64,000 nucleotides of DNA from Litoreibacter janthinus (lineage in GTDB: Bacteria; Pseudomonadota; Alphaproteobacteria; Rhodobacterales; Rhodobacteraceae). The notes below the pieces were generated by a model. That model made no database searches, was not told where the DNA came from, and saw nothing but the letters and a program-made list of their open reading frames with translations. A program made the translations under genes and the position numbers. Shown one piece after another: positions 46,981 to 64,000 of this stretch; the stretch's first letter is position 1, and each line of letters starts with the position of its first letter. The DNA lies in the NCBI RefSeq assembly GCF_900111945.1, contig NZ_FOYO01000001.1:1185751-1249750 (forward strand), given 5' to 3'.

Positions 46981-47616
46981 TCAATCCTTCCAGCGCGGGG
47001 CAAGGTCAGTGTGAATGTTCATGGCATCGAGCCAGCGGCCAACCTGATGATTCACCAGATCATCTATCGAATTGGTTTTCATATAAAAAGCGGGCATCGG
47101 CGGGGCGATTATCGCACCCATTTCGGTCGCCGCGGTCATGTTTCGCAGATGACCCAGATGCAACGGTGTCTCGCGGACCCCCAAAATCAGTGGCCGCCGT
47201 TCCTTCAATGTGACATCGGCGGCACGAGTCATCAAACTGCTGCCAATTCCGTTTGCAATTTCAGCTAAGGTTTTGACGCTGCAAGGCGCAATAATCATAC
47301 CATGTGCACGAAACGACCCGGACGCAATACCTGCACCGATGTCACCATTAGAATGAACATGATCGGCCAGCGAGCGCACCAATTCCGGCGAATAATCCGT
47401 CTCAACCGCCAATGTTTGAATGGCGGGTTTCGTCATTATCAGGTGTGTTTCAACAGACAGCCCTTGCAGAACCTCGAGCAACCGAACCGCGTAAGGCATT
47501 CCAGACGCTCCTGAAAGACCTACAATGATGCGACACCTGACTTCCTGCCCGCCTGACGTAGTCTGCAGGCTTGGTTGTGTTGTCACTGGCCTGTCGGAAT
47601 TTTTATACATCTGCAT
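46981..47616 (-). CDS. UbiX-like flavin prenyltransferase
   Basis: A 211-aa flavoprotein. GLSGASGMPYAVRLLEVL (flavin-binding N-terminal motif), APCSVKTLAEIANGIGSSLMTRAADVTLKERRPLILGVRETPLHLGHLRNM and MGAIIAPPMPAFY are in the UbiX pattern. UbiX makes the prenylated FMN cofactor used by UbiD-type decarboxylases. It carries a 27-residue N-terminal extension over a typical UbiX. No UbiD partner is seen in this window. It is divergent from the response-regulator gene at 47728. Confidence 0.88.
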   Translation of the reverse strand: MQMYKNSDRPVTTQPSLQTTSGGQEVRCRIIVGLSGASGMPYAVRLLEVLQGLSVETHLIMTKPAIQTLAVETDYSPELVRSLADHVHSNGDIGAGIASGSFRAHGMIIAPCSVKTLAEIANGIGSSLMTRAADVTLKERRPLILGVRETPLHLGHLRNMTAATEMGAIIAPPMPAFYMKTNSIDDLVNHQVGRWLDAMNIHTDLAPRWKD

Positions 47617-47679
47617 GTCTTTCTAAAAAATATTTTTGCGATTATGGTGACGCCGCAAACCTATCGGTGCCGGTTAAGA

Positions 47680-47691
47680 ATTACATGTAAT
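47680..47691. promoter_or_regulatory. Palindrome upstream of response regulator
   Basis: ATTACATGTAAT is a perfect 12-base palindrome 36 bp before the response-regulator start codon. A TTACAT half-site repeats at about 47709. It may be an operator. No factor can be assigned. Confidence 0.35.
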
Positions 47692-47727
47692 TTTTTATGC
47701 TATTTTTTTACATTAGAGGCGACAATA

Positions 47728-48501
47728 ATGATTCAAGTTCTTTTGATCGACGATGACGTTGAGCTTGCCGAGCTCATGCGCGACGTTCTTACAAAATACA
47801 GTATCGAGTTAACCGCGGTTCACACCCCCAACGAGGGCTTCGAAGCGCTTGAAAACAAAAAATTTGATCTCGTTCTGCTGGATGTGATGCTGCCGCAATT
47901 AAACGGTCTGCAGATGTGCAGCAAGATCCGCTACAGCAACGCCGCATACAAAGATATTTCGATCATTATTCTGACGGCGCGAACGGAGCTGACCGATATG
48001 GTCGTGGGTCTTGAGACCGGCGCTGATGACTACGTTAAAAAACCATTCGAGCCCCGTGAGCTTGTCGCACGAATCAACGCAATTCTTCGACGGGCAAACG
48101 CTCCCGAGGAAGCCACAGCGGCTCAGCTTCCCGTTTTGGACGCCGGCTCCGTTAGCACTCGAAGCGGGCTGTGCGTTGAAGTTGCACTCGAAGGAAATAT
48201 TCTACAGATCGAGACACAGCGCGCCCAAGTCCGCGTGAATGGCGAAAAGCTGGTGATTACATCGATGGAATTTGAACTGATTGCGGCTCTTGCTCAGCGA
48301 CCTGGCGAGATTTTGAATCGGGATGACCTTTTGGACGAGGTGCATGGCACTAGTGGTATCTACACACGCAGCATTGACGCATTGATTTACAGGCTTCGGA
48401 CCAAAATCAGAGAGGCTGGTGCCTCATCAGATTTCATTCGTACAGTGCGTGGCCGCGGCTACTCCCTTGTCGGGCAGGTTAATAGCCTTACCAGCACCTA
48501 A
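47728..48501 (+). CDS. OmpR-family response regulator
   Basis: A 257-aa two-domain regulator. Receiver domain (IQVLLIDDDVELAEL, phospho-Asp52 in LVLLDVMLPQLNG, Thr in IIILTAR, Lys in DDYVKKPFEP). Winged-helix C-terminal domain (SMEFELIAALAQRPGEILNRDDLLDEV, then RSIDALIYRLRTKI). The ATG at 47728 is preceded by AGAGGCGA. An upstream in-frame extension has no support. It starts one base before the phosphopantetheinyl transferase gene and is the first gene of the putative biosynthetic cluster. No histidine kinase gene adjoins it; the kinase at 55165 might serve it. Confidence 0.93.
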   Translation: MIQVLLIDDDVELAELMRDVLTKYSIELTAVHTPNEGFEALENKKFDLVLLDVMLPQLNGLQMCSKIRYSNAAYKDISIIILTARTELTDMVVGLETGADDYVKKPFEPRELVARINAILRRANAPEEATAAQLPVLDAGSVSTRSGLCVEVALEGNILQIETQRAQVRVNGEKLVITSMEFELIAALAQRPGEILNRDDLLDEVHGTSGIYTRSIDALIYRLRTKIREAGASSDFIRTVRGRGYSLVGQVNSLTST

Positions 48502-48502
48502 G

Positions 48503-49117
48503 ATGTCCGGCCAAGCGCTGTGTGTTATGGCTGACGCTTTGCCTGATAACACTGGAGGGCAGGGCCGGCGGCTCGCTATCTACGCAGCCGCGCGGATGAG
48601 TGGTTTTCCTATGTCCACTCATTCGCTCCATCGGACGCAGCTCAAGCAGCCATTTATCCGGATGCCCGATGGGGTATTGCCTTGCTCGATTTCGCATGTT
48701 GCAGGCATCGTTGTTGCGGCTGCTGCGACGCCAGGCTTTTCCGTCGGGGTAGATGTAGAGCAGGTGAGCCGGTTCGAAACGATGACGGAGAGTTTGGTTG
48801 GGGCAATTCTGTCACCCGCCGAGCAGGCGCTTCGCAAGGTTTGGACCCCTGAATCGCTTCTTGTGGTGTGGAGCCTCAAGGAAGCGTTTCTCAAGGCTGA
48901 AGGAACGGGATTTCAGGACCGCCCAAACAAATACGAGTTAGCGCACCTCACACCGGATTGCCTACATGATCTTGGCGACGGGCGCTTCTGGCTTCATAAG
49001 CGATTCTTGATAAAGCAAGGTACGTGGATCACGCTTGGTGTGCTGGGAACCAGCCATGATGCTGTTGCAGAGTGTGCGTTTGGTTACCAAGTAATTCAAA
49101 GCAGTGAAATACCGTGA
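48503..49117 (+). CDS. 4'-phosphopantetheinyl transferase (Sfp-type)
   Basis: A 204-aa transferase that loads coenzyme-A-derived phosphopantetheine onto carrier proteins. The family motifs are GVDVEQVSRFE (about residues 82-92) and WSLKEAFLKAEGTGF (about 123-137). The ATG at 48503 comes two bases after the regulator stop, so the two are coupled. The likely target is the carrier protein at 62867 in the same cluster. Such a dedicated transferase is a strong sign of secondary-metabolite assembly. Confidence 0.93.
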   Translation: MSGQALCVMADALPDNTGGQGRRLAIYAAARMSGFPMSTHSLHRTQLKQPFIRMPDGVLPCSISHVAGIVVAAAATPGFSVGVDVEQVSRFETMTESLVGAILSPAEQALRKVWTPESLLVVWSLKEAFLKAEGTGFQDRPNKYELAHLTPDCLHDLGDGRFWLHKRFLIKQGTWITLGVLGTSHDAVAECAFGYQVIQSSEIP

Positions 49118-49259
49118 CACAAAGTCATAGTTTCTCATAAATGCACCAATTATCGATTTTTATCGAATGATATGGGCACCCATTTCTTTTGAAAACACCG
49201 CCGCTTAAGCTTGAGGAGCGGGCCTGCGCTCGCGGTCGCCAACAACTCGAGAGTTTATC

Positions 49260-49784
49260 ATGCCCCGTACTTCATTATTCCTGTGCCTCGTGCCTCTCGT
49301 CCTTTTTGGGGCCATAGGCGGGTTCTTCTACGCGTATTCGGTCTCGGTCATGCAGGGGCTGAACAACCTGTCCGACAGCGCCGCAATTCAGGCAATGCAA
49401 GAGTTGAACCGAGGGACGCGAAACGCTGTTTTCTTGGTTACCTTCCTTTTCACTCCTATCGTGTCCGTGCTGTGCGCCGCAGTTCTGTACTGGAAAGGCG
49501 ATCGTGCGACCGGGGTATTATTATTGGCAGCTTCAGCGGTCTATTTTTTGGGATCCTTCCTGCCAACAGTGAATATCAACGTGCCTTTGAACCATGAAAT
49601 CGAAGCGTTGAACGCAACGATGTTGAGCTCATCAGAAGCCGCGAGTGTCTGGGCCGAATATAGCGCGACCTGGACCTATTGGAATACGATCCGTGCCGTG
49701 ATGGCGTTGATTGGACTGGCTCTGGCAGGTAGCGCAGTCTACGCCCTCAAACGTCAACCCGCACCCGTTGCAGTAGGCGCCTGA
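49260..49784 (+). CDS. DUF1772 (anthrone-oxygenase family) membrane protein
   Basis: A 174-aa membrane protein with four helices (residues 7-27, 55-78, 83-103, 145-165). LNRGTRNAVF, LPTVNINVPLNHEIEALN and YWNTIRA fit the DUF1772 family, which includes enzymes that act on anthrones in fungal and bacterial polyketide pathways. Many bacterial members are of unknown function. Its place between the phosphopantetheinyl transferase and the ABC exporter suggests a tailoring step or a membrane role. Confidence 0.8.
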   Translation: MPRTSLFLCLVPLVLFGAIGGFFYAYSVSVMQGLNNLSDSAAIQAMQELNRGTRNAVFLVTFLFTPIVSVLCAAVLYWKGDRATGVLLLAASAVYFLGSFLPTVNINVPLNHEIEALNATMLSSSEAASVWAEYSATWTYWNTIRAVMALIGLALAGSAVYALKRQPAPVAVGA

Positions 49785-49818
49785 GGGCGAATTAGCCCAG
49801 CCCTCGATTCGCCCTGTG

Positions 49819-49847
49819 CCGAATGCGTTTAGATCAGACGCATTCGG
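49819..49847 (+). terminator. Intrinsic terminator after the DUF1772 gene
   Basis: Ten-base stem CCGAATGCGT/ACGCATTCGG (49819-49828 with 49838-49847), then TATTTTTCG. Confidence 0.82.
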
Positions 49848-50036
49848 TATTTTTCGTATTTGTGACCGTCGAACGCAAATCATACGCGGAAAAATATTCG
49901 TCATAATACGTCGTTCATTTGTGACACCCCGCCATTTTAAAGCGTCTAAAAACCATCCTTTGTTGTTTGTTTTGAAGGGGTCGAAACTCGTAAGTTTGGA
50001 TCAGAAAAAATAAACTGAGCCATAAGGAATGGACGC

Positions 50037-50780
50037 GTGAACAGTATTAACACCCATCGGTCTTTTCAGCCTGAGAACCACCTTCAGCCTGTGGACCATT
50101 CGCAAACCGGCGCTTCTGTGGTCCGGTTCAACAATATCTGCAAATCCTACACGATGGATCGAGTCGAGGTGAACGCCCTGCTCGATGTATCAGGCGAAAT
50201 CGCACGCCGGGAGACGACTTTCATTACTGGCCCTTCCGGCAGCGGTAAGTCGACCTTGCTCAACATCATGGGGCTGATCGATCAACCGACTTCCGGCGAG
50301 CTGATTATCCTTGATCAGGACGTGACAAACCTCAGCGACAAGGCGGCGGCCGACTTTCGGTCCGAGCACATCGGGTTCATCTTCCAATCGTTCAACTTAA
50401 TCCCGGTTTTGACAGTTGGCGAGAATGTTGAATTTCCGTTGCTGCGCCGGATCAAATCTGCGTCCAAGCGGCGCGAGAAGGCGAAGCAATACCTGGATGC
50501 AGTGGGCCTTGCCGACTTGTTTGATCGACGTCCTGGAGAGATTTCCGGCGGCCAACGTCAACGTGTGGCGATTGCCCGCGCTCTGGTAACTGAGCCGACG
50601 CTGATCATCGCTGATGAACCTACCGCAAACCTCGACTCGCAAACCTCTCGTGAGATCATCGCACTGCTGGACCATATGAAGTCCGAGTTCGACACCTCTG
50701 TGGTGATCTGCACGCACGACACCAGCCTGATTACTCAGGGCAGTGCCACGATCAACATCATCGACGGCCGGACGGCCTAG
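50037..50780 (+). CDS. ABC transporter ATP-binding protein (LolD/MacB-type)
   Basis: A 247-aa ATPase. Walker A GPSGSGKSTLLNIMG, Q-loop GFIFQSFNLIPVLTV, signature ISGGQRQRVAIARAL, Walker B LIIADEPTANLDS and H-loop CTHD are all intact. Similar to LolD/MacB ATPases, with a 30-residue N-terminal extension. GTG start with AAGGAA 9 bases upstream. The permease begins ten bases after its stop. It energises the exporter of the cluster. Confidence 0.93.
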   Translation: MNSINTHRSFQPENHLQPVDHSQTGASVVRFNNICKSYTMDRVEVNALLDVSGEIARRETTFITGPSGSGKSTLLNIMGLIDQPTSGELIILDQDVTNLSDKAAADFRSEHIGFIFQSFNLIPVLTVGENVEFPLLRRIKSASKRREKAKQYLDAVGLADLFDRRPGEISGGQRQRVAIARALVTEPTLIIADEPTANLDSQTSREIIALLDHMKSEFDTSVVICTHDTSLITQGSATINIIDGRTA

Positions 50781-50790
50781 GAGCAGAACA

Positions 50791-52176
50791 ATGATTTGGA
50801 AAATCGCATTTAGAAATCTGACAAAAAACGCACGGCGGTCTGTGACAACAGCGCTGGCCATCGGCATAGGCGGCTTCGCGGCGCTCTTGTTCGGGGGGTT
50901 TGTGACTTCGATTTGGTTCGGAGTTCAGACTTCCATGATCCAAGAACAGGGCAACCTTCAGATTTACCGTGACGGATATCTGGAGTTCGGCGCAGCCAAC
51001 CCTGATGACTATACCATCAAAAATTGGGATGAAGTTGCAAAGCTTCTCTCGAGCGACCCGGTGCTGAACAAGCAACTGGCTGTCATCACCCCGCGTATTG
51101 ATCTGGCCGGTGTGGCCGGTAATGCGCAGACCGGCAACTCAAAGACCTTTATCGGGTCTGGTGTCGTGCCTTCGAATGTTGACCGGATGCGCCAGTGGGA
51201 TGGTTGGTCCATCGGGCAGGTATCGCCGGCTTCCGGCCTCGGAGATCAGGTGCTTGATGGCGTCGTCATTGGCCTTGGTATGGCGAGGATGATGGGGATG
51301 TGTGGTCCGCTGAATGTAGCAGATTGCCAAGACCGCCCGGTTGAAGACGAAGCGCTGAATTCAGCAGAAACCGATTTTACCGCATTGGTGAATGATGAAG
51401 CTGAACTGACTGATCTGCGAGAAGCAGGTGCCGAGCGCCCACAGCTAAACTTGATGGCCGCAACATCGTCCGGAGTGCCGAATATCGCTCGTGTGGGAAT
51501 TGAGTCCGCTCAACCACAAGCAATCCGCGCCATCGACAACGCCTTCGTCATGATGCACTTCGAGCAGGCACGCAGCCTTCTTTACGGTGACAGCCAGGAA
51601 GCAACGACGTTGATGCTGCAGGTTAACAATCCTGATCAAGTGGATACGGTTAAAACGCGCATCGAAGAAGTTCTGAACCGCGCTGGCCTGGATCTGAAGG
51701 TCTATCACTTCACCGAAGTGGACCCGACCTTCGATCGAATCTTCGGCATGTTCACCTTTATGTTCATCGTAGTGTCTGTGGTGCTGTCGATCGTCATCGT
51801 CTTCACCATCGTGAACACGGTCTCGATGAACGTAATGGAACGCGTCAAAGAGATTGGCACAATTCGCGCACTAGGCTTCCGTAAAGGGTTTGTGCGGGCC
51901 TTGTTCCTGACCGAGAGCGCCCTGATCGGCCTGTTCGGTGCGCTGATAGCACTGGGCGCGGCAGTGATCATTGCCAACCTCATCAACTCCGCCGGTGTCC
52001 AATGGACGCCACCATCGAATGCCACCCCGCTGACGGTCCAGCTGATGGTCCTCGACAACCCGATCTTCGCGATAAGCGTGGTTGCCTTGCTGATCATTAT
52101 CTCCGTCGTCGCCTCTGTGATCCCCACGTTCAAGGCAGCCCGCCTGAACATCGTAGAGAGCCTGCAACGCGCTTGA
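50791..52176 (+). CDS. ABC transporter permease (LolE/MacB/FtsX-type)
   Basis: A 461-aa permease with the MacB/FtsX topology. One N-terminal helix (about residues 18-45), a large periplasmic domain (about 50-320), and three C-terminal helices (about 330-460) with VSMNVMERVKEIGTIRALGFRKGFVRALFLTESALIGLFGALIALG. The start has TAGGAG in front. This type moves lipids or lipoproteins out of the inner membrane or powers efflux. Together with the LolA-like protein and beta-barrel downstream it suggests a route across the envelope. Confidence 0.92.
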   Translation: MIWKIAFRNLTKNARRSVTTALAIGIGGFAALLFGGFVTSIWFGVQTSMIQEQGNLQIYRDGYLEFGAANPDDYTIKNWDEVAKLLSSDPVLNKQLAVITPRIDLAGVAGNAQTGNSKTFIGSGVVPSNVDRMRQWDGWSIGQVSPASGLGDQVLDGVVIGLGMARMMGMCGPLNVADCQDRPVEDEALNSAETDFTALVNDEAELTDLREAGAERPQLNLMAATSSGVPNIARVGIESAQPQAIRAIDNAFVMMHFEQARSLLYGDSQEATTLMLQVNNPDQVDTVKTRIEEVLNRAGLDLKVYHFTEVDPTFDRIFGMFTFMFIVVSVVLSIVIVFTIVNTVSMNVMERVKEIGTIRALGFRKGFVRALFLTESALIGLFGALIALGAAVIIANLINSAGVQWTPPSNATPLTVQLMVLDNPIFAISVVALLIIISVVASVIPTFKAARLNIVESLQRA

Positions 52177-52215
52177 TCGCGCACAACAAAACACTGAACC
52201 GAAAGGAACGATACA

Positions 52216-53007
52216 ATGGAACTCCAACGTCGTGAATTTACACAGCTCTTGTTTGGTGGCGCAGCTGCCGCCGGTCTAACCTCTCTGGGACTGCCAGCGT
52301 TCGCCGCCGGAAGCGCCAATAGCATCCTGACCAAAGCGGATGCGATCCGGAACCCTCAGACCTCCTTTGCAGTAGACGTGACCCTGTCTGCATACGAACG
52401 GGGCAAGCTGAAAGACCAGACCAAGGTAACAACCTACTCGCGTGCCAGCGGCCGCCAATTCCAAACGCTGGTCCATATCAACGCGCCAAGTGCAGACCGC
52501 GGTAAGATTTTGCTCAGAAACGGCAACATCTTGTGGCTCTATGACCCTGCTTCAAAGGCGTCGGTCCGTATTTCGCCGCGCCAACGTCTGCTGGGCAACG
52601 CTTCCAACGGCGATGTCGTCAGCTCAAATCTGGTCGGTGACTATTCCGCGAGCCTGCAAGGTCAGGAAACCATCGCGGATGGCGATAAGAAGAACCGCAG
52701 CTGTCACAAACTGCATCTAACCGCCGCTGCGAAATCAGCACCCTACAGTGCAGTGGATTTCTGGGTGGATGAACGCAACAACAGCCCCATCAAAGGCAAG
52801 TATTTCACCAAGAGCGGTCAACTGATCAAAGTTGCTTGGTATCGGAAGTGGAAGAACCAGATGGGCGCAAGCCGTCCAACTGAAGTTGTGATCGCTGATG
52901 GCTTCGACCCAAACAAGGTGACCGTGATGACCATGGGCAACTTCCGGGCAAAGAAGCTGCCGGAATCATGGTTCAACAAAGAATGGCTGCCAAACTTCAA
53001 GGTATAA
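52216..53007 (+). CDS. LolA-like outer-membrane lipoprotein-sorting protein
   Basis: A 263-aa exported protein. The N-terminus has a twin-arginine-like signal (QRREFTQLLFGGAAAAGLTSLG). The mature part has the LolA/LolB-type half-barrel pattern of the outer membrane lipoprotein-sorting family (DVTLSAYERGKLKDQTKVTTYSRASGRQFQTL, DRGKILLRNGNILWLYDP). It shuttles a hydrophobic molecule across the periplasm. AAAGGAACG lies upstream of the ATG. Located between the ABC permease and the beta-barrel gene, in the same transcription unit. Confidence 0.86.
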   Translation: MELQRREFTQLLFGGAAAAGLTSLGLPAFAAGSANSILTKADAIRNPQTSFAVDVTLSAYERGKLKDQTKVTTYSRASGRQFQTLVHINAPSADRGKILLRNGNILWLYDPASKASVRISPRQRLLGNASNGDVVSSNLVGDYSASLQGQETIADGDKKNRSCHKLHLTAAAKSAPYSAVDFWVDERNNSPIKGKYFTKSGQLIKVAWYRKWKNQMGASRPTEVVIADGFDPNKVTVMTMGNFRAKKLPESWFNKEWLPNFKV

Positions 53008-53022
53008 TAAGGAGCCTTTGAG

Positions 53023-54454: not shown

Positions 54455-55162
54455 TTGCACGTTTTGATACTAGATGATGACGAAGAACTTGGTGAGATAA
54501 TGCAGCCGGTCCTTGCCAAATATGGCATGGACCTAAAGCTGGCCTTCACGCCAACCAGCGCTTTTGAGCAGCTTGAAAAAGACAGGTTCGACGTGCTTTT
54601 GCTTGATATGATGCTGCCCGAGCTGGATGGCATGACGGTTTGCCGTACCATTCGAGCGAGTGACAAACCCTATGCACAAATTCCGATCGTGGCGCTTACT
54701 GCGCGTGCGGAGTTGACCGAAAGGATCGTGGCGCTAGAAAGCGGCATTGATGACTTTGTGGCCAAACCGGTTGAAATGCGAGAGCTGGTGGCGCGATTGG
54801 GTGCCGTTGTGCGTAGACGCCGGGCAGAGGCCGTTCAGGATGTAGCAGTGCCAGATGTAGCGGTCTCAGCGACTGCGGAGTTGGAATTGTCTGCCGCCCA
54901 AATGACCGCACGGTTTGCCGGATATGTTGTCAATCTGACCGAACTTGAGATGCAAATTGTTAAAGTGCTTGCGGACGCTCACGGGAAAACTGTTAGTCGC
55001 GCGGAAATACTTGAGCAAATCGGCTATGCGCAACAAAACGATCCCGCTATGATCGACACAATTATTTACCGGGTCCGTCAAAAGTTTCGTGATCAAGGGC
55101 TGCAACCCGATTTTATTAAGACTCTGCGCAGCCAAGGCTACCGCATTGAGACAAGGAATTAG
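54455..55162 (+). CDS. OmpR-family response regulator (TTG start)
   Basis: A 235-aa regulator similar to the one at 47728. Receiver with HVLILDDDEELGE, phospho-Asp51 in VLLLDMMLPELDG, Thr in IVALTARAEL, Lys in DDFVAKPVEM. Winged helix with LTELEMQIVKVLADAHGKTVSRAEILEQI and DTIIYRVRQKF. A Val/Ala-rich repeat (QDVAVPDVAVS) links the domains. TTG appears to be the start codon, with AGGAC shortly upstream, because there is no ATG upstream in frame. The kinase gene follows after two bases, making a regulator-kinase pair. Confidence 0.92.
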   Translation: MHVLILDDDEELGEIMQPVLAKYGMDLKLAFTPTSAFEQLEKDRFDVLLLDMMLPELDGMTVCRTIRASDKPYAQIPIVALTARAELTERIVALESGIDDFVAKPVEMRELVARLGAVVRRRRAEAVQDVAVPDVAVSATAELELSAAQMTARFAGYVVNLTELEMQIVKVLADAHGKTVSRAEILEQIGYAQQNDPAMIDTIIYRVRQKFRDQGLQPDFIKTLRSQGYRIETRN

Positions 55163-56478: not shown

Positions 56479-57134
56479 TACCAACTACTTTAGCGGAAAC
56501 CGAGTTCTTTGATTTTTCCGATCCTGCTGTGGAACGGTTTGCAAAACGCGCCTTGAAATCCGGAAGCGCCGACAAAAGAGTGCAAGCTATCGAGCTCTTT
56601 TACGCAGTTCGCGACGGATTGTTTTACGAGATCTACAATGCAGATTTTGCCCGAGAAAAAATGTCAGCGAGCGCAATTTTGCGCAAGGGGTCTGGGCTCT
56701 GTATTCATAAGTCGATCGTCTACACCGCGCTTTTGCGTAAGATCGGCATCCCGGCAAAGCTATGGATTACCGATGTGAAGAACCATTTGTGTTCACCTCA
56801 GCTGGCCAAATTGATGGGCAGTAATGTCTTCCACTACCATGTTCTGGTTTCTTTGCAGCTAGACGGGAAATGGATCAAGGCAACGCCCGTTTTCAATGCC
56901 CGCTTGTGCCAGCTCTACCGTATGACGCCCCTTGAGTTTGACGGGGTCGAGGACTGCGTGAATCACGCGTATGACACAGATGGCAACAACTACATGGAAA
57001 TCACACATGAGCATGGCGAGTATAGCGATCTGCCTTATGAAATGGTGCTGAATGGGTTGCGCCAAAAACACGCTTCAATGTTTGAAACAGAAACAAAATT
57101 TCGGTCAGGTTCCTTGGTCGGAGACCTCGTCTAG
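56475..57134 (+). CDS. Transglutaminase-like protein
   Basis: A 219-aa cytoplasmic protein of the transglutaminase-like fold. The likely catalytic Cys76 is in SGLCIHKSIVYTALLRKIGIPAKLW, and His122 in NVFHYHVLVSLQLDGKW. The third residue, usually Asp in a later LDPT segment, is not seen (KATPVFN instead), so activity is uncertain. Such proteins act as peptidases, acyltransferases or amidases in biosynthetic clusters. ATGA overlap with the kinase gene, so it belongs to the regulatory unit. A terminator follows. Confidence 0.78.
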   Translation: MIPTTLAETEFFDFSDPAVERFAKRALKSGSADKRVQAIELFYAVRDGLFYEIYNADFAREKMSASAILRKGSGLCIHKSIVYTALLRKIGIPAKLWITDVKNHLCSPQLAKLMGSNVFHYHVLVSLQLDGKWIKATPVFNARLCQLYRMTPLEFDGVEDCVNHAYDTDGNNYMEITHEHGEYSDLPYEMVLNGLRQKHASMFETETKFRSGSLVGDLV

Positions 57135-57158
57135 ATCAACCCAAACCGCTTCTTTTGG

Positions 57159-57323: not shown

Positions 57324-57354
57324 TTTGTGCGATTCATAATTCTTTTCGCACAAA
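57324..57354. promoter_or_regulatory. Inverted repeat upstream of the biosynthetic operon
   Basis: TTTGTGCGA (57324-57332) and TCGCACAAA (57346-57354) are an exact 9-base inverted repeat with 13 bases between, in an AT-rich stretch 112 bp before the ectoine-synthase-like start codon. It may be an operator for one of the cluster regulators. It could also be a weak hairpin without function. Confidence 0.45.
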
Positions 57355-57465
57355 ACACCAAACTATCCACAAATTGGCTGTCCTATACTGAATTTACATC
57401 AGGCGAACACAACGACTTAGAGTTGGGGGAGCTTGGTCCAAATTAACATTTAGAGAGCCAAGAAA

Positions 57466-57846
57466 ATGATTATCAATTCCATCGACAAAATCACCGACAC
57501 CGAGCGTGATATCGCGTGGGGAAACGGGAAGAGCCGCCGTCTTCTGATTGAAAAAGACAACATGGGCTATTCGCTTACCGATACCATTATCGATGCCGGT
57601 ACGTCCTCTTTGCTGGAATACAAAAACCACCTTGAAGCCTGCTATTGCATTGAAGGCGACGGCGAGGTTGTGGACGAGCAAACTGGTGAAGTTCATCGCA
57701 TCACCCCCGGCACCATGTATGCCTTGGACAAGAACGACAAACATTGGCTGACCGCCAAAGAGACCCTGCGTCTTGTTTGTGTCTTCAATCCTCCGCTGAA
57801 GGGCGATGAAGTTCACTCGTTGGGTGGCGGCAGCTCGGCTTACTAA
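57466..57846 (+). CDS. Orphan ectoine-synthase (EctC)-like protein
   Basis: A 126-aa cupin-fold protein resembling EctC, which closes the ring of ectoine from N-gamma-acetyl-diaminobutyrate. The residues that bind iron in characterised EctC are kept: Glu57 in HLEACYCIEGDGE, Tyr85 in TMYALD, His93 in DKHWL. The C-terminal tail is shorter than usual. No ectA, ectB or ectD lies in this window; instead ketoacyl synthases follow. That context suggests a different cyclisation, perhaps of a carrier-bound or released intermediate. The ATG at 57466 has AGAGAGCCAAGAA upstream. Confidence 0.88.
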   Translation: MIINSIDKITDTERDIAWGNGKSRRLLIEKDNMGYSLTDTIIDAGTSSLLEYKNHLEACYCIEGDGEVVDEQTGEVHRITPGTMYALDKNDKHWLTAKETLRLVCVFNPPLKGDEVHSLGGGSSAY

Positions 57847-57899
57847 GCCCTCCCTTTTCCTCCCTCTGTCTCCCCAGCTAACCAAAGGTTGTATCTGTC

Positions 57900-58886
57900 A
57901 TGAAAGACAGCGTCATTGTCTCAGCAGCATGCGCGGATCTCGCGCCCGGTGGTCCCCTCCCTGCCACCCGGCCTAGTGCGGATGCAACCTTTGGTTCTTT
58001 TAACGTCAATTTCTTGGATCATTCCGATTTTGAGGCGCACAGGACGGCGGAACGCGGACGGCACACTCGAGTATCCTTCCGGATGGGCCAAATGATCGAA
58101 AAGCTCCTAAAGGAAGCGGGTCTCACAAAAGAAGAGGTGTCCGGCCCTCGAACTGCGCTCATTTCAGGGTCAAAATACGGGTGCTCGCAGGTGTTTGAAA
58201 TTCACCGCCGCTTGCGCAAACATGGACCCCGCGGGATCGACGCGGTCAGGTTTGCCCAGGCGACGCATAACTTTCCAGTTTCCACATGCGCTATTGAGTA
58301 CGGATTGATGGGGCCATGTCTGGCGATTGTCAGCACCGAGACCGCTGGCATGGATGCGCTGCTTTGCGCACATGACTGGATTACCGACGACCGCTGCGAC
58401 AGAGCCATCGTGGTTGGCTTCGAGGATTTCTCCTCGCCAACCGGAGAGCACGTTTGCGCGCAAGCAAAAGACGCGCCATCCGGTCAGTCGGTTAGCGAGG
58501 CCATGGTCATGGTTTTGTTGGAGCGTCAATCATGCGCCAAAGCGCGCGGCGTTTCCTCCGAGATGCCGCAGATCACAGGCATGGCAACGACTCATGTAAA
58601 CGCTGCCGCTACAGACGCCGCCCGAGTTCGCGCCAAGCTGGCGTGCCCGACGGCCACACATGAACAGATTTCTTTCCTCACCACGCATCGCTTAGGGCTC
58701 TGCGGCGAAGAGGGTAACGACACGGATTACCTTGGTGCCGGCGGATTGCTGGAAATCGCACACCTGCTGAAAAGCCCGAATGCGGGCCAGCGAGGGCAGC
58801 AACACTGGCAGATCAGCGCAATGTCGCAAGGCGGCAACGGCGTGACGGCTGGCATCAAGGTAACACAAATGGAATACGCCTTATGA
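57900..58886 (+). CDS. Ketoacyl-synthase homologue with Cys-to-Glu active site (chain-length-factor-like)
   Basis: A 328-aa thiolase-fold protein. Without gaps, GLMGPCLAIVSTETAGMDAL here lines up with GLHGPLSSFSCACASSIGAL of the next gene, so the catalytic Cys is Glu. The first His is kept (FLTTHRLGL) but the second is not (TDYLGAGG instead of GHLLGSAG). It is 80 residues shorter than a normal synthase. It most resembles the non-catalytic partner (KS-beta / chain length factor) of type II polyketide and aryl-polyene systems. Its stop overlaps the active synthase start by 4 bp, so equimolar production is likely. Confidence 0.8.
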   Translation: MKDSVIVSAACADLAPGGPLPATRPSADATFGSFNVNFLDHSDFEAHRTAERGRHTRVSFRMGQMIEKLLKEAGLTKEEVSGPRTALISGSKYGCSQVFEIHRRLRKHGPRGIDAVRFAQATHNFPVSTCAIEYGLMGPCLAIVSTETAGMDALLCAHDWITDDRCDRAIVVGFEDFSSPTGEHVCAQAKDAPSGQSVSEAMVMVLLERQSCAKARGVSSEMPQITGMATTHVNAAATDAARVRAKLACPTATHEQISFLTTHRLGLCGEEGNDTDYLGAGGLLEIAHLLKSPNAGQRGQQHWQISAMSQGGNGVTAGIKVTQMEYAL

Positions 58887-60121
58887 GCCGCTCAGTTGTT
58901 GTAACCGGTATGGGCGTCGTCTCGCGCGACGTCATCGGAATTCCCGCATTTTGTCGTCTGCTCTCAGATGGCAGCCCGGTTCCCGGACGGCCCACTCAGT
59001 TCGATTCAGACCGCTTCCGCGCCAAAAACGCCTATGCCACTGATCCTGATGTCACGTTAGCTGCCCTACGTCGCGCGCTTTCGCGCAGCAGCAAGCGGCT
59101 AGGTCTAACGGAAATGACAGAGCCCGAGATGAATTGTGCGGGCTATAGTATGCTCGCAGCGATTGAAGCGGTTGAGCAGGCTGGACTTACCTCCGATATT
59201 CTAAGTACGGCGGGTTGCTCGATTGCGACAACAAGCGGCGGCATGATGGATCGCTTTACTGACGCCCTTGAAGAGGGCGATCATAGTGTGGAATTTCAAG
59301 AGCTTGTTAGCCCAGGAAGCGCAGCCGTGGTGCTTCAACGAGTGCTGGGTCTACATGGGCCGCTCAGCAGTTTTTCTTGCGCATGTGCCAGCAGCATTGG
59401 CGCGTTGTCTTACGCATTTATGCGGATTCGCAACGGAGATGCCCCAGTAATGCTGGTCGGCGGAAATGACCGTATCCGTGAAGCAGATTTTGCAGGCTTC
59501 AATGCGCTACGAGCAATGGACCGAGAGCGGTGCCGACCCTTTGATGTCGACCGCCGCGGGATGATAATTGGTGACGGCGCAGCGATCCTTGTGGTTGAGG
59601 ACGAAGAGCACGCTCGCGCCCGGGGGGCGCAGCCTCTGGCGAAAGTGTCGAGCATTGCCCTTTCCACAGACTCCCACCACATCACCTGCCCTAAACCAGA
59701 CGGTTTGACGCGTGCCATGGGACAAGCCTTGGAGCGAGCGAACCTAAGCGCGGATGCGGTCGGCTACGTGAATTGCCATGGCACGGGGACACAGATCAAC
59801 GATGAAGCCGAAGCGATAGCGCTGGAGGCTGTATTCGGCGGGTCAGTAAAACGCCCGATTGTCAGCTCGACCAAAGGAACAACAGGTCACTTGTTGGGCA
59901 GTGCTGGTGCAATCGAAGCAGTTGCTACCATTTTAGCGCTGCGCGCCGGTGAGGCGCCGCAGATGACATCGACGATTAACCCCGAAGACATCCCGTTCAC
60001 GATGCCCGTAAAGGGCCAAGACCGGACCATTCGTACAAATGTCGCCATGAGCAATTCCCTTGGATTTGGCGGCCTGAACGGGAGCGTGATCTTTGCGCTG
60101 CCCGAAACTGGAGACATCTAA
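58883..60121 (+). CDS. Beta-ketoacyl-ACP synthase (FabF-like), intact
   Basis: A 412-aa condensing enzyme. Active-site residues are present: Cys in SFSCACASSIGAL, His in NCHGTGTQINDEAE, and His in STKGTTGHLLGSAG, with the C-terminal NSLGFGGLNGSVIF. It catalyses carbon-carbon bond formation by decarboxylative condensation on a carrier protein. It forms a coupled pair with the Cys-less homologue (ATGA overlap) and overlaps the dehydrogenase start by one base (TAATG). No ketoreductase, dehydratase or acyltransferase is visible downstream in this window, so few reductive steps are likely encoded here. Confidence 0.93.
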   Translation: MSRSVVVTGMGVVSRDVIGIPAFCRLLSDGSPVPGRPTQFDSDRFRAKNAYATDPDVTLAALRRALSRSSKRLGLTEMTEPEMNCAGYSMLAAIEAVEQAGLTSDILSTAGCSIATTSGGMMDRFTDALEEGDHSVEFQELVSPGSAAVVLQRVLGLHGPLSSFSCACASSIGALSYAFMRIRNGDAPVMLVGGNDRIREADFAGFNALRAMDRERCRPFDVDRRGMIIGDGAAILVVEDEEHARARGAQPLAKVSSIALSTDSHHITCPKPDGLTRAMGQALERANLSADAVGYVNCHGTGTQINDEAEAIALEAVFGGSVKRPIVSSTKGTTGHLLGSAGAIEAVATILALRAGEAPQMTSTINPEDIPFTMPVKGQDRTIRTNVAMSNSLGFGGLNGSVIFALPETGDI

Positions 60122-61302
60122 TGCGCACGATCCGCAACCTTTCCCGCACCACCGACGCAGGCACCTATCGCACTGATCTCGTTGAAACGCTCGCAGAGGC
60201 TCTTGACCAATGGGCACCACTGCTGAACGAGGGGTGGCAGGCCGATGATCAGGCCTCCACTTTTGGGGACAGCCGCTGGCGCGCCATGGTCGATGCGGGC
60301 CTGACAGGTCTTTCCACCAGCGAAGAGCATGGCGGCATGGCACTCAGCGTCGCAGAACTTACGGACGTTCTGGTGCATTTGGGCTATGTCTGCGAAGACT
60401 CAGGCCTAGGGTTTTCGCTGGCAACCCATCTTTGCAGCACGTGCATTCCAATCCAGCATTTCGGCGGCGACGAGCTCAAATCAGACCTGCTTCCCCAACT
60501 GGCGGCGGCCGAGGTGGTCGGCGCGCATGCGATCACCGAACCAGACAGCGGTTCAGACGCCTTTGCGATGAAAACCCACGCTATCAAAGACGGGAATGAC
60601 TACATCCTTTCGGGCGAAAAGTGCTACATTTCAAATGCTCCAATTGCCGACATCTGCGTCGTGTATGCGCGCACCCACCCAGAGAAGGGCGCGCTTGGCG
60701 GCTTCTCGGCTTTCGCGGTGGACTGCAATGCCGACGGTTTTACCATCGGCAAGTCGCGCAAAAAGATGGGCTTGCGCACTGCTCCAATGGCTGACCTGTA
60801 TTTCGATGATGTGCGTGTCCCCGAAAGCCGCCTGATCGGGCGCGAAGGGCAGGGCTTTTCTATCCTCGACTATGTGATGAAATGGGAAATCCTCTGCGTT
60901 TTCGCGCTGCAAGTTGGCGAAATGCGCCGACAGCTGGAACGCTGCATTTCCTTCGCGAAATCCCGCCAACAGTTCGGTGCCGCGATCGGTAGTTACCAGG
61001 CCATTTCCCACCGTGTGAGCGATATGCATATCCGGCTTGAAAACGCTCGCAATTGGCTCGGTCGCGCTGTCAATGCGATGGAAGGCGGTGGGCAAGCGTC
61101 GCTTGAGATCGCGTCCGCCAAGTTGGCAATTTCGGAAGCGCATGTCGCCAATTCGATGGACGCTGTCACGCTTCACGGCGGTGCTGGATACATGCTGGAA
61201 ACTGGCATCGAAAGCCATCTGCGCAATGCAATCGGGGGGCTGATCTACTCCGGCAGCTCGGACATCCAAAAAAACCGCATCTCTGCGATGCTTGGCCTTT
61301 AG
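60121..61302 (+). CDS. Acyl-CoA dehydrogenase family, probably acting on a carrier-bound aminoacyl group
   Basis: A 393-aa flavoprotein with the family fold: GLTGLSTSEEHGGMALSVAEL, the AHAITEPDSGSDAFAMKT FAD/substrate motif, and FAKSRQQFGAAIGSYQAISHRVSDM. The segment YVMKWEILCVFALQVGEMRRQLERCISF resembles the W-E-R-A/C pattern of PltE/RedW/PigA-type prolyl-carrier-protein oxidases. Immediate neighbours are an adenylation enzyme and a carrier protein, so an oxidation of a carrier-tethered amino acid is the likely reaction. The C-terminal base region is IGGLIYSGSSDIQKN. Confidence 0.88.
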   Translation: MRTIRNLSRTTDAGTYRTDLVETLAEALDQWAPLLNEGWQADDQASTFGDSRWRAMVDAGLTGLSTSEEHGGMALSVAELTDVLVHLGYVCEDSGLGFSLATHLCSTCIPIQHFGGDELKSDLLPQLAAAEVVGAHAITEPDSGSDAFAMKTHAIKDGNDYILSGEKCYISNAPIADICVVYARTHPEKGALGGFSAFAVDCNADGFTIGKSRKKMGLRTAPMADLYFDDVRVPESRLIGREGQGFSILDYVMKWEILCVFALQVGEMRRQLERCISFAKSRQQFGAAIGSYQAISHRVSDMHIRLENARNWLGRAVNAMEGGGQASLEIASAKLAISEAHVANSMDAVTLHGGAGYMLETGIESHLRNAIGGLIYSGSSDIQKNRISAMLGL

Positions 61303-61317
61303 AACGAGGAAATTGAA

Positions 61318-62844
61318 ATGTTACTGCAAACGAATTTTCAGGTTTCCGAGACGCGCGCATTTTTTGAAATGCTACGTGAGGAAATGCAAAAAACGCCGGA
61401 AGCCGAGGTCGGAACCCTCACCGAAACAGCGAGCTTTACCAAGATTCTGGATATCGCCGATATTATCCGCGCTCAACTCCACGATATCGGAAGCGACCGC
61501 GATGCAGTCGTCGCCATCTGTGCCGAGAAAAGCCCGCATAGTGTTGCAGCAATTCTGGGCGTGCTGTCGAGCGGACTGGCCTACGCGCCGCTGGACCCAA
61601 GCCATCCCGATACACGGTTGACCAGCATTCTGGACGATCTGGCTCCACCTGTACTGATCGTGGATGACGCAACCCGCAGCCGGTTCGAAGTTTGGGCCCG
61701 ACGGAGTGGAACGCAGTTGCTGACTTTTTCCGAGCTGCCCAAAACTGTGCCGCCCGTACCAGTGGCTTCGGGTGCTCAACGGTCATTGGCTGCTGTTTTG
61801 CACACGTCTGGCTCGACTGGAAAACCCAAGCGCGTTTTGATCGAGGCCCCTGCGCTCGACGCGTTTCAAAGCTGGGTTGTTGGTGAGATCAGCATCGACA
61901 TCGACGACTGTGTTCTCAGCCATGCACCCTTTGCGTTCGATCTGTCTTTCCTCGACATTTTCGCATCCCTTGCAGGAGGAGCCTGCCTAGCTCTGGCAGA
62001 CACAAAAACTGCCCGCAACGGCCCGAAACTGGTCGAGATGATGCAGCAGCACAATGTCACCATCTGGCACTCTGCCCCTTCTGCCTTAAAACTGGTGGCC
62101 GAGGCCGCATGCGAACTCACATTGCCTCAAGTGCGTTGCGTTTTGTTTGCTGGCGAACCGATGCAGAGCCGCCTCCTCAGGCAGCTGTTCCGCATCTTTC
62201 CGAATGCTCGGTTTATCAACATCTACGGATGCACCGAGACCAACGACACCTTCTTTTACGACGTGCCGCGTATCGACACGCCTGACCCGCTGCCGCTCGG
62301 CCGCAAGCTTCCCTATGTCGACTATATTCTCGTGGACAATGCTGACATGCCCGTTTCCGGCGAAGGGCAGGGCGAGCTATGGGTGCGTTGCCCGACCATG
62401 ATGCGCGGCTATAGCGATCAACAACTGACCGCGAAGGCGACAGGGTGGCGCGATGGCGTAGGATACTACCGCACTGGCGATATGGTCCGCCGCGATGCGA
62501 ATGGCATGGTCCACTTCATCGGTCGTAACGACACGATTGTAAAACTAAGCGGCGTGCGTGTGGATCTGAACGAAATCGAGGCCTGCTTGCAGGCCCACCC
62601 CTTAGTTGATGAGGCAGCTGCCTATGTCGATAAATCCGGGGACACGGCGGTACTGAACGCTTTTGTCTCAAGCAAATCTGATGAGCTCAACAGTATCGAT
62701 CTGCGGCTCTATCTGATGAAGCGGCTTCCGACGGCCGCCATCCCACGAAAGTTCACGATCTCCATTCAGGAGGTTCCGAAAAACTCTAACGGGAAGGCAT
62801 GCAGACGCATGCTGGAACAACAACTCGTCGAAACCCAAACATAG
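61318..62844 (+). CDS. Stand-alone adenylation enzyme (amino-acid:carrier-protein ligase)
   Basis: A 508-aa AMP-forming ligase with NRPS adenylation-domain motifs: A3 LHTSGSTGKPKRV (about residue 162), A4 APFAFDLSFLDIF, A5 NIYGCTETN, A7 YYRTGDMVRRD, A8 GRNDTIVKLSGVRVDLNEIE, A10 NSNGKACRR with Lys. The Asp of the FDLS segment fits binding of an alpha-amino group, so an amino acid is the likely substrate. It should load the carrier protein encoded next. Similar to PltF/RedM/PigI-type prolyl ligases in size and neighbours. The specificity pocket cannot be assigned reliably by eye. Preceded by AACGAGGAAA. Confidence 0.88.
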   Translation: MLLQTNFQVSETRAFFEMLREEMQKTPEAEVGTLTETASFTKILDIADIIRAQLHDIGSDRDAVVAICAEKSPHSVAAILGVLSSGLAYAPLDPSHPDTRLTSILDDLAPPVLIVDDATRSRFEVWARRSGTQLLTFSELPKTVPPVPVASGAQRSLAAVLHTSGSTGKPKRVLIEAPALDAFQSWVVGEISIDIDDCVLSHAPFAFDLSFLDIFASLAGGACLALADTKTARNGPKLVEMMQQHNVTIWHSAPSALKLVAEAACELTLPQVRCVLFAGEPMQSRLLRQLFRIFPNARFINIYGCTETNDTFFYDVPRIDTPDPLPLGRKLPYVDYILVDNADMPVSGEGQGELWVRCPTMMRGYSDQQLTAKATGWRDGVGYYRTGDMVRRDANGMVHFIGRNDTIVKLSGVRVDLNEIEACLQAHPLVDEAAAYVDKSGDTAVLNAFVSSKSDELNSIDLRLYLMKRLPTAAIPRKFTISIQEVPKNSNGKACRRMLEQQLVETQT

Positions 62845-62866
62845 CTTTACTTACAGGAGATTACCT

Positions 62867-63121
62867 ATGTCTTACACAACTCTACGCTCGTTCATTTCCG
62901 AGGAATTTGCACCGGATATTAGCCCGGAAAATCTGTCTGACGATCTTGATCTGATCGAAACTGGGATCGTCGACAGCCTCGGCGTGCTCAAGCTGATCGC
63001 CTTTCTGGAAGGCGAGTTCGACCTGAATATTACGCCGGATGAATTGGACGCGGACCTGTATCGTACGATCGGTCTGATCGAGGCCATGATCACCAGCAAG
63101 CAGATGAAAGTGGCCGTCTAA
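62867..63121 (+). CDS. Peptidyl/acyl carrier protein
   Basis: An 84-aa carrier protein. The phosphopantetheine attachment serine is Ser37 in LIETGIVDSLGVLKLIAFLEGEF, with the D-S-L motif. Similar in size and pattern to stand-alone prolyl carrier proteins (PltL/RedO type). CAGGAG stands nine bases before the ATG. Expected to be loaded by the transferase at 48503 and charged by the adenylation enzyme 22 bp upstream. Confidence 0.92.
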   Translation: MSYTTLRSFISEEFAPDISPENLSDDLDLIETGIVDSLGVLKLIAFLEGEFDLNITPDELDADLYRTIGLIEAMITSKQMKVAV

Positions 63122-63155
63122 GCAGACCACATGCCAACATAAAGGAGCGAAGGCC

Positions 63156-64000
63156 ATGAAACCTGACCAAACCGCTGCCGCGGTGATCGCGGGCAACCGT
63201 CCCGCTGAAGCAGACATGATTGCGTATTGGGAGGTCACGGATTCCGGCCTTCGCCCCAAAGCTGAAACTGTGGCCGTTCTGGCTGCACTTTCAGCGAATA
63301 CAAGCAACGTCGAGATGATGCGTAGCTTTGTAAGCTATATTCGAAAAACTTACCCACCGATTGCTCTCGACGGCTCTCCCCGTGCCGTGAATATCGTTGG
63401 CACCGGTGGCGGTAGGTCTACCTTCAACATCTCTACCACTGCCGCCTTCGTTGTGGCAGCCGCCGGTGGACGGGTGCTAAAATCGGGCTCGTCCGCCTAT
63501 TCCAGTTCCGTTGGTTCTGGTGATATTCTCAGCGCATTGGGCCTTGCCGGGTCTTCATGCGATGCCTTTACCGAAGACATGCTTGGCCACACTGGCATGG
63601 CTTTTGCATCCGCCACACGTTACGCGCCAATCTGCAAAAGGCTCGCGATCGCGGCGATGCCTTTGAACTTCAAAATAATCGGGCGATTTGTGAATGCTCT
63701 TGGGCCGATGATTTGCCCCTACGAAGTGCGCGGTAGCGTTGTAGGGACCTCAACTCTGGGGTTGTTCGATCATATGCACAAAATCTCCAGCAGCCTTGGG
63801 ATCGGGTCTTTGATCGTTCATTCCGAAGAGGGCGTGGATGAGTTGTTGAGCGTCGGAACAAACCGGTTTGTCAGCTCCGACAGCTCCGAGCCGCAAATGC
63901 TCTATCCCACGGACTTGGGGTTGCAGGACGGCGATATCGATGCCCTGACCGGGGGCGACTTACACATCAATCTGGCCATTATGAAAGATATTCTGCGCGG
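63156..64000 (+). CDS. TrpD-like phosphoribosyltransferase (partial, runs off window)
   Basis: About 281 residues are visible and the frame stays open to the end of the window. The fold family is that of anthranilate phosphoribosyltransferase: NIVGTGGGRSTFNISTTAAF (about residues 79-98) and FKIIGRFVNALGPMICP. Residues that bind the ribose-phosphate donor in TrpD are altered: GTGGD is GTGGG, and KHGNRS-type sequence is KSGSSAY. It may thus transfer another group or use another acceptor. AAAGGAG precedes the ATG, 34 bp after the carrier-protein stop, so it belongs to the same operon. Confidence 0.82.
   Translation, partial: MKPDQTAAAVIAGNRPAEADMIAYWEVTDSGLRPKAETVAVLAALSANTSNVEMMRSFVSYIRKTYPPIALDGSPRAVNIVGTGGGRSTFNISTTAAFVVAAAGGRVLKSGSSAYSSSVGSGDILSALGLAGSSCDAFTEDMLGHTGMAFASATRYAPICKRLAIAAMPLNFKIIGRFVNALGPMICPYEVRGSVVGTSTLGLFDHMHKISSSLGIGSLIVHSEEGVDELLSVGTNRFVSSDSSEPQMLYPTDLGLQDGDIDALTGGDLHINLAIMKDILR

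Follow-up and report, generated by a model that had tools for sequence, protein, structure and literature searches.

The DNA analysed here is a stretch of 64,000 nucleotides from Litoreibacter janthinus (the window; bases 1185751-1249750 of the 3.57-Mb contig C1 in a genome of 3.75 Mb and four contigs), the right part of which carries biosynthetic genes around an orphan EctC-type cupin. These genes form the left part of a conserved cluster. From sequence comparisons it appears fairly probable that the core of this cluster is a kosinostatin-type pyrrolopyrrole cassette, which would use glutamine and phosphoribosyl pyrophosphate to build a two-ring nitrogen unit bound to a carrier. Our best call is a Gram-negative version of the kosinostatin-type cassette, the predicted product of which is likely exported.

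Proposed pathway

In the first step, the EctC-type cupin would cyclise glutamine to the cyclic amidine 5-amino-3,4-dihydro-2H-pyrrole-2-carboxylate (ADPC). An adenylation enzyme of the proline type, whose pocket has one more Asp to accommodate the amidinium, would then load ADPC on the carrier protein, and its use of ATP would pull the unfavourable cyclisation forward. An oxidase of the prolyl-carrier-dehydrogenase type would aromatise the loaded ADPC to a 5-aminopyrrole-2-carbonyl-carrier. The second ring would be built by four enzymes resembling those of tryptophan biosynthesis: the TrpD-like enzyme would put a phosphoribose on the exocyclic amine, the TrpF-like enzyme would form the Amadori ketone, the TrpC-like enzyme would close the second pyrrole ring on C4, and the TrpA-like enzyme would free glyceraldehyde-3-phosphate. 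The expected product is a pyrrolo[2,3-b]pyrrole-2-carbonyl-carrier; C5N2 from glutamine and C2 from ribose add up to this structure (C7N2 as the carboxylate). Extension of the pyrrolopyrrole unit, perhaps with a cyclisation, would fall to a beta-ketoacyl synthase (KS) and its Cys-less partner; an AfsA-like protein, a flavin oxidase, an Anthrone_oxy protein, UbiD/UbiX and a transglutaminase-like protein would finish and release the product; and the transporters of the major facilitator superfamily (MFS), ABC/FtsX/LolA-like and MMPL types would carry it to the envelope under two-component control.

This scheme retains much of the first-pass annotation, which had an amino acid loaded on the carrier and oxidised; that part is likely right. 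EctC had been taken for the cyclase of the final step. The cyclisation was kept, but its place was not, as EctC most likely acts first and would make the amino acid to be loaded. The TrpD-like gene had been recognised as such, but the proposed annulation takes four Trp-like enzymes, and the other three are encoded past the window. The annotation had also named no described pathway with this gene set. A literature search did not reveal the set as a published pathway either, with subscription papers, including the kosinostatin paper, largely outside its coverage; the core, however, has a precedent in the reported logic of kosinostatin pyrrolopyrrole formation. Ma et al. (2013, Chemistry and Biology) reportedly described the bicyclic amidine of kosinostatin as the product of a tryptophan-biosynthesis-like process with a discrete adenylation enzyme and a peptidyl carrier protein (PCP).

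The EctC-type cupin

The cluster copy is the single EctC match in the Litoreibacter genome, and no EctA match was found in the genome (TIGR02406, E <= 0.001), so that the normal EctC substrate has no known source there. The metal ligands E57, Y84 and H92 are retained in the cluster EctC. For the EctC of P. lautus, PMC6344544 gives W21, R25, N38, T40, Y52 and E57 as substrate contacts. Position N38 is T in 17 of 17 EctCs of the cassette group and in none of 30 others; most of these 30 have H at this position, and N is not general in the sample. At position W51, E occurs in 17 of 17 EctCs of the cassette group, but 5 of the 30 others have it as well. The same source describes a displacement of the Trp by two residues in some orphan EctCs and calls the role of orphan EctCs not yet clear (PMC6344544); the displacement is present in the cluster EctC, too. 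In the tree, the WGNG group of orphan EctCs, to which the cluster copy belongs, is set off from the rest with a support of 100/99.

Glutamine cyclisation has a precedent, as the EctC of Halomonas can cyclise glutamine to ADPC with an equilibrium favouring glutamine (PMC5924519 and PMC6344544). With low probability, the cluster EctC forms not ADPC but another cyclic amidine, derived for example from an N-acylated diamino acid or a precursor that stems from nicotinic acid; this amidine would then undergo the same loading and Trp-like annulation. The change of the EctC substrate residue fits this alternative, and so does the feeding of kosinostatin cultures, which is said to have revealed nicotinic acid and ribose as precursors; nicotinic acid as a precursor speaks against an origin from glutamine, unless the label went through central metabolism. 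An orphan EctC of Pseudomonas syringae, moreover, could make ectoine in a Halomonas ectC mutant (PMC5924519), and thus orphan EctCs are not all glutamine cyclases. On the other side stand the missing EctA match and the core itself, in which no dedicated gene for the supply of a diamine or an acyl group was recognised. Glutamine, in contrast, needs no extra gene, and its C5N2 together with C2 of ribose would match the pyrrolopyrrole carboxylate exactly.

Other EctC loci did not resemble the cluster. At 29 of them, no cluster gene was detected within flanks of about 1.5 kb on each side (tblastn, E <= 1e-3), and six wider regions of WGNG-type orphans (12 kb each) had no match to the carrier, the oxidase, the KS or the Trp-like proteins. 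An adenylation-type match occurred in two of these six regions. In L085 it was a weak ligase match (24% identity) about 3 kb from EctC. In L087 (genome G428) the WGNG-type orphan EctC (about 5865-6242) lies about 0.6 kb from an open reading frame (ORF) of 1659 amino acids resembling nonribosomal peptide synthetases (314-5293) with two adenylation-type matches; this may be another sort of cluster in which a product of EctC is used. In L084 (genome G590) a PutP sodium/proline symporter gene (4277-5752; 544 bits, equivalog cut-off 515.5) adjoins a WGNG-type orphan EctC gene (5773-6162); such a pairing would make sense if the EctC product were proline-like, as ADPC is.

Adenylation enzyme, carrier and oxidase

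In an alignment of the Litoreibacter orthologue, the specificity region of the adenylation enzyme was nearest to the L-proline ligase 6o6e. Adenylation pockets are numbered after GrsA. The pocket of 6o6e reads D L L Y L A L V C and that of the cluster enzyme D L L H L A I D T, so that V is replaced by D and C by T, and the proline specificity residues of 6o6e are not those of the cluster enzyme. Asp occupies position eight in 15 of 17 aligned rows, the exceptions being a gap in a truncated protein from a metagenome-assembled genome (MAG) and an unrelated enzyme of Streptomyces albogriseolus. The C position of the proline pocket is T or S in all 15 readable adenylation domains of the cassettes, which stem from two phyla. 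The carrier has a DSLG motif that is invariant in 10 sequences, and the top match of the oxidase in the PDB is an L-prolyl-[PCP] dehydrogenase (258 bits).

The loading of ADPC is expected because ADPC is proline-like, because the pocket is of the proline type with an additional Asp, because the enzyme is encoded near EctC, and because no EctA match is present. Both the oxidase, nearest to prolyl-carrier dehydrogenases, and the proximity of the specificity region to 6o6e would also agree with a plain proline-to-pyrrole route, in which proline is loaded, oxidised to a pyrrole-2-carbonyl-carrier as in prodigiosin or pyoluteorin formation and extended by the KS pair, and a different amine is the later substrate of EctC and the Trp-like enzymes. 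We regard this as quite unlikely. The V and C positions of the pocket are changed (to D, and to T or S) in 15 of 15 readable members from two phyla, a plain pyrrole offers no amine to a TrpD-type enzyme, and EctC lies within the compact operon of Streptomyces described below. Plain proline loading was dropped on account of the altered pocket.

TrpD and the Trp-like set

The cluster TrpC, TrpA and TrpF form, with TrpD, a second and divergent tryptophan-type set. Housekeeping TrpD, TrpC and TrpA are encoded elsewhere in the genome, and the cluster copies are 31-34% identical to these. The cluster TrpD keeps GTGG and DE, has KSGS in place of KHGN (KSGS or KTGS in the cassette group), and lacks HHPA and the R-ELG stretch, at the positions of which it reads RYAP and PLNFK; KHGN, HHPA and R-ELG belong to the anthranilate site of TrpD. 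A 5-aminopyrrole would be an amine acceptor without an ortho carboxylate, which is in line with the loss of this site. The exchange is a property of the group: KSGS was found in 41 of the 44 proteins retrieved with the window TrpD at E <= 1e-60 (three were unreadable by pattern), K(S/T)GS was found in 113 of the 120 best listed of 790 TrpD matches, and 20 of 21 housekeeping TrpDs have KHGN and the remaining one KHGG. In the tree, 25 cassette-like TrpDs were split from 21 housekeeping TrpDs with a support of 100/100. The 25-member clade includes, in its actinobacterial part, the TrpD of Micromonospora okii (P0176, motif KTGA). 'Micromonospora sp. TP-A0468' is Micromonospora okii according to the NCBI taxonomy, and TP-A0468 is the kosinostatin producer strain.

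Among the other Trp-like proteins, TrpA keeps Glu49 and Asp60, TrpF keeps Cys7, and TrpC keeps AEIK/AEVK, RKDF and NN(R/K). The Arg of the HPR motif of TrpF is N in both Gemmobacter proteins. No TrpB was seen among the cluster ORFs by eye, a search aimed at TrpB not having been made.

The presence of all four families, TrpD, TrpC, TrpF and TrpA, two of which (TrpD and TrpA) score above the NCBIfam cut-offs of the ordinary enzymes, could also mean that the set is a second indole supply, which leads from anthranilate to indole for joining to a pyrrole or polyketide. This is very improbable, as the anthranilate site of TrpD is lost throughout the group and housekeeping Trp copies with the usual KHGN in nearly all TrpDs compared are available. 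TrpE and TrpG were likewise not recognised among the cluster ORFs by eye, again with no search aimed at them. The TrpD residues led us to drop the indole supply.

Conservation in Alphaproteobacteria and Streptomyces

With the Cys-less KS partner as query, 18 proteins including that of the window were retrieved from a database of 5.8 billion proteins, and 5 of 394 genomes of the same family, again including the window's own, matched at E < 1e-50. A scan of a species-genome collection yielded ten loci, nine of which keep the core order as far as contigs or flanks reach: Litoreibacter sp., Primorskyibacter aestuariivivens, Fertoeibacter niger, Pacificoceanicola onchidii, an uncultured Roseobacter, Gemmobacter caeruleus, a Gemmobacter MAG, a Rhodobiaceae MAG and a Rhodobacteraceae MAG (5.4-kb contig only). 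At the tenth locus, from Abditibacteriaceae (E 4e-7), the core was not present in the same order. Thalassococcus (G173) also carries the core, which brings the total to ten other alphaproteobacterial genomes. In addition, eight plasmid records of Aliiroseovarius crassostreae contain TrpD and KS, and the one region examined (L102) shows the cluster on a plasmid.

The surrounding genes are conserved to different degrees. Among the ten relatives, the 461-aa putative outer-membrane protein and orthologues of regulator 2 were found in nine each, clear orthologues of regulator 1 in seven, the DUF1772 protein in six and the phosphopantetheinyl transferase in one. Both Gemmobacter loci matched only the paralogue of regulator 1, namely regulator 2, and regulator 1, the DUF1772 protein and the MFS gene were unmatched there. 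Regulator 1 is placed after TrpC in the Rhodobiaceae MAG, and the part with AfsA, oxidase and MFS lies upstream in Primorskyibacter.

The cassette TrpD is seldom met: searches of 398 genomes of the phylum (Raoultella query, E <= 1e-50) and of 385 genomes of the class (window TrpD query, E <= 1e-60) gave no hit outside the genome to which the window belongs. One of the 44 proteins retrieved with the window TrpD was from Raoultella. This TrpD-like protein of R. ornithinolytica (P0057; 116 contigs) is of the KSGS type and 41% identical to the window TrpD, and Raoultella may, to judge from this protein, harbour a further cassette. A plasmid search with it led to Streptomyces replicons; TrpD relatives were found in a total of 19 plasmid records, 11 from Streptomyces and 8 from Aliiroseovarius.

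In five of six Streptomyces regions examined, the genes for EctC, the acyl-CoA dehydrogenase, the adenylation enzyme, the carrier, TrpD, TrpF, TrpC and TrpA make up a single operon of eight core genes. These complete cassettes are on plasmids of the strains NBC_00209, NBC_01351 and NBC_00536, of S. xanthii and of S. clavuligerus; the S. clavuligerus record is unannotated, and its eight genes were found by tblastn. The annotated operon consists of KS, MaoC, AMP-binding protein, PCP, TrpD-like protein, TrpA, ectoine synthase, acyl-CoA dehydrogenase, TrpF and TrpC. Compared with the window proteins, EctC is 57-60% identical and the oxidase 47-48%, whereas the remaining six reach 30-46%. S. xanthii has, in addition to the eight core genes, a transglutaminase-like gene, the product of which is 48% identical to the window protein. 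Its cassette (L104 2967-5813) lies about 8 kb from a set of KS, chain-length factor (CLF) and acyl carrier protein (ACP) genes, and the strain may therefore be a producer of the quinocycline type. The sixth region, on a plasmid of S. albogriseolus (L106 11741-13458), has a reduced set of PCP, TrpD and EctC only, and the nearest adenylation-type gene is of a different type and about 10 kb off.

Because the core order is kept in ten other genomes, the neighbourhood is not due to chance. An ordinary neighbourhood without a joint product, for which only the assignment of almost all single parts to known families could be adduced, is next to impossible, and it is already contradicted by this order and by the recurrence in Actinomycetota. 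The first-pass annotation had regarded the region as one biosynthetic gene cluster and had named the same gene order in other genomes as a thing to look for; the order is indeed conserved, and lack of conservation is not an objection to the cluster.

Ketosynthase pair, predicted tailoring and export

The KS carries the motifs AC-SS, HGTGT and TGHLLGS, with conservation of these motifs in 11 sequences. For the Cys-less partner, an AlphaFold model was of moderate confidence (mean pLDDT, predicted local distance difference test, 70). In a Foldseek search, the model had 1032 matches in the PDB with E <= 0.001, and the top 50 listed are ketosynthases or KS-containing synthases; according to this model, the Cys-less protein has the KS fold. 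Extension by the KS, as proposed in the first-pass annotation, is probable. The nearest described pair is AmcF-AmcG of cispentacin formation, which performs one C2 extension and the closure of a five-membered ring (PMC10698177). AmcF is the fifth-ranked NCBIfam match of the cluster KS, with 207 of 325 bits, and AmcG is the sixth and last match of the Cys-less partner, with 21.7 of 80 bits; both cut-offs were missed.

The AfsA-like protein, the flavin oxidase, the Anthrone_oxy protein, UbiD/UbiX and the transglutaminase-like protein would be candidate tailoring enzymes by family assignment. UbiX is likely the partner of the UbiD past the window, and the transglutaminase-like protein is a candidate acyl transferase or off-loading enzyme. 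Three UbiD-like orthologues, including that of the Litoreibacter cluster, read VLHG in a stretch where other UbiD enzymes have AE-IVLEG, and hence their catalysis may be unusual.

A dedicated envelope route for the product, another claim of the first-pass annotation, is likely right. The ABC/FtsX/LolA-like set and the set of LolA-like protein and MMPL exporter suggest that the product is lipophilic and is exported to the outer membrane. A pigment as product is a lead only: among the species with the cluster, Gemmobacter caeruleus has a name that means blue, and Fertoeibacter niger one that means black. Glaukothalin, the blue pigment of Rheinheimera, was considered as product and rejected: its halves, as described in the source, have five sp2 carbons, one NH and two oxygens and do not fit.

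Points against the proposed pathway and its implications

Several results weigh against a kosinostatin-type cassette that starts from glutamine. The reported labelling of kosinostatin by nicotinic acid is one of them. The comparison with the kosinostatin producer species covers one TrpD. The 17 cassette EctCs group inside the WGNG group with a modest support of 82/39. The cluster TrpD just passes the NCBIfam trpD cut-off (201.3 of 199.05 bits), and the cluster TrpA passes that of the ordinary enzyme (128 of 102 bits). In the TrpC-like protein, some 40 residues are missing from the N-terminus and SASG replaces SESG, so that its reaction may differ. The best NCBIfam families of the oxidase are PigA and RedW, with 359 bits against cut-offs of 500 and 650. 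The KS and its Cys-less partner miss the cut-offs of their nearest NCBIfam families, and FabF-type families rank higher for both. Searches of the 12-kb flanks in S. albogriseolus, also those with S. xanthii proteins, did not find the other five core genes. Lastly, the conversion of glutamine by EctC was reported to be of very low efficiency, and the ectoine formed by the P. syringae orphan belongs here as well (PMC5924519).

A wider proposal is put forward more tentatively, with somewhat less than even confidence: the WGNG orphan EctCs of the cassette subtype would be glutamine cyclases, ADPC would be the committed precursor of all kosinostatin-type pyrrolopyrroles, and Rhodobacterales would use the cassette to make a new pyrrolopyrrole polyketide that is exported to the envelope and may be a dark pigment. 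With the proposed pathway, the orphan EctC group would gain a concrete function, and the bicyclic amidine of kosinostatin-type antibiotics would have a simple origin from two precursors, glutamine and ribose. Kosinostatin-type chemistry would extend from actinomycetes to alphaproteobacteria, where its genetic surroundings are different and include a KS pair, UbiD/UbiX and a lipid-like export. The Asp of the adenylation domain, the Thr and Glu of EctC and the KSGS/KTGS motif of TrpD offer tags for the mining of further clusters.

Gene content of the cluster

The cluster comprises about 28 genes in 28 kb, from UbiX at the left edge to UbiD at the right end, and runs about 11 kb past the window end (Table 1). 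All parts named in the first-pass annotation were found at their positions by ORF translations and Pfam, and the regulators by sequence; the Aliiroseovarius counterparts of both OmpR-type regulators are annotated as response regulators. UbiX and the transglutaminase-like protein had been overlooked. The expectation that the cluster continues beyond position 64000 was borne out, as the adjoining sequence adds TrpC, TrpA, TrpF, AfsA, flavin oxidase, MFS, MMPL and UbiD. Elsewhere in the window, positions 32001-34000 have the strongest AT skew among 32 windows of 2 kb (-0.196, with a GC skew of +0.10).

Table 1. Genes of the cluster. Genes past the window end have L002 coordinates (numbering of the extended region), with families by Pfam.
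Feature	Position	Strand or placement	Basis
UbiX-type flavin prenyltransferase	46981..47616	-	PF02441 146 bits; NCBIfam NF004685 262 bits (cut-off 188)
OmpR-type response regulator 1	47725..48501	+	judged from sequence
4'-phosphopantetheinyl transferase	48419..49117	+	PF01648 44 bits
DUF1772 / anthrone-oxygenase-family protein	49260..49784	+	PF08592 Anthrone_oxy 54.7 bits
ABC transporter ATPase	50037..50780	+	PF00005
FtsX-like permease	50788..52176	+	PF02687
LolA-like outer-membrane sorting protein 1	52216..53007	+	PF17131 127.7 bits
Putative outer-membrane protein, 461 aa	53023..54408	+	no Pfam match; "beta-barrel" is the label of the first-pass annotation
OmpR-type response regulator 2	54455..55162	+	judged from sequence
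HAMP sensor histidine kinase	55165..56478	+	PF02518, PF00672
Transglutaminase-like protein	56475..57134	+	PF01841 40 bits
EctC-type cupin cyclase, orphan WGNG subtype	57466..57846	+	PF06339 165.6 bits
Cys-less KS-fold partner (chain-length / cyclisation factor type)	57900..58886	+	PF00109, N-terminal domain only
Beta-ketoacyl synthase	58883..60121	+	PF00109, PF02801
Acyl-CoA-dehydrogenase-family oxidase	60121..61302	+	nearest to prolyl-carrier dehydrogenases
Stand-alone adenylation enzyme, pocket D L L H L A I D T	61318..62844	+	PF00501
Carrier protein, DSLG serine	62867..63121	+	PF00550
TrpD-like phosphoribosyltransferase	63156..64000, stop 199 bases past window end	+	PF00591 152 bits
TrpC	L002 6944-7657	after TrpD	Pfam
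Receiver-like protein, 145 aa		after TrpC	no Pfam match
MFS	L002 8079-9281	opposite to TrpD/TrpC	Pfam
Flavin amine oxidase	L002 9278-10582	opposite to TrpD/TrpC	Pfam
AfsA hotdog protein	L002 10595-11470	opposite to TrpD/TrpC	Pfam
TrpA	L002 11467-12276	opposite to TrpD/TrpC	Pfam
TrpF	L002 12273-12944	opposite to TrpD/TrpC	Pfam
LolA-like protein 2	L002 13325-14227	forward	Pfam
MMPL/RND exporter	L002 14310-16751	forward	Pfam
UbiD	L002 16735-18135	forward	Pfam

Comparison with known systems

The cluster EctC shares the cupin fold family and the Fe ligands with the canonical ectoine synthase, and it differs in the exchanges of N38 to T and of W51 to E, in the shifted Trp and in the genomic context without an EctA match. 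Like the prolyl-to-pyrrolyl trio of the RedW/PigA type, the cluster combines a stand-alone adenylation enzyme, a carrier and an oxidase of the acyl-CoA dehydrogenase type; in contrast to that trio, its pocket has D and T/S for V and C, and its oxidase stays under the equivalog cut-offs. The AmcF-AmcG pair of a KS and a cyclisation factor has the same layout as the cluster pair, a Cys-bearing KS next to a shorter partner with KS fold and without functional motifs, whereas the cluster pair scores below both NCBIfam cut-offs.

The features reported for kosinostatin (quinocycline B) that are present in the cluster are the discrete adenylation enzyme, the carrier and the set of TrpD-, TrpF-, TrpC- and TrpA-like proteins. 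The precursor is reportedly nicotinic acid for kosinostatin and would be glutamine for the cluster. No type II polyketide synthase of the anthracycline type was seen in the cluster, which instead has a KS with a Cys-less partner, an AfsA-like protein, UbiD/UbiX and a Gram-negative envelope export. The Streptomyces cassettes differ from the cluster in their neighbours, which are KASIII, MaoC, a short-chain dehydrogenase/reductase, a methyltransferase and aminotransferases and, in S. xanthii, the KS/CLF/ACP set, but they contain the same eight genes with the same signature residues as the window cluster.

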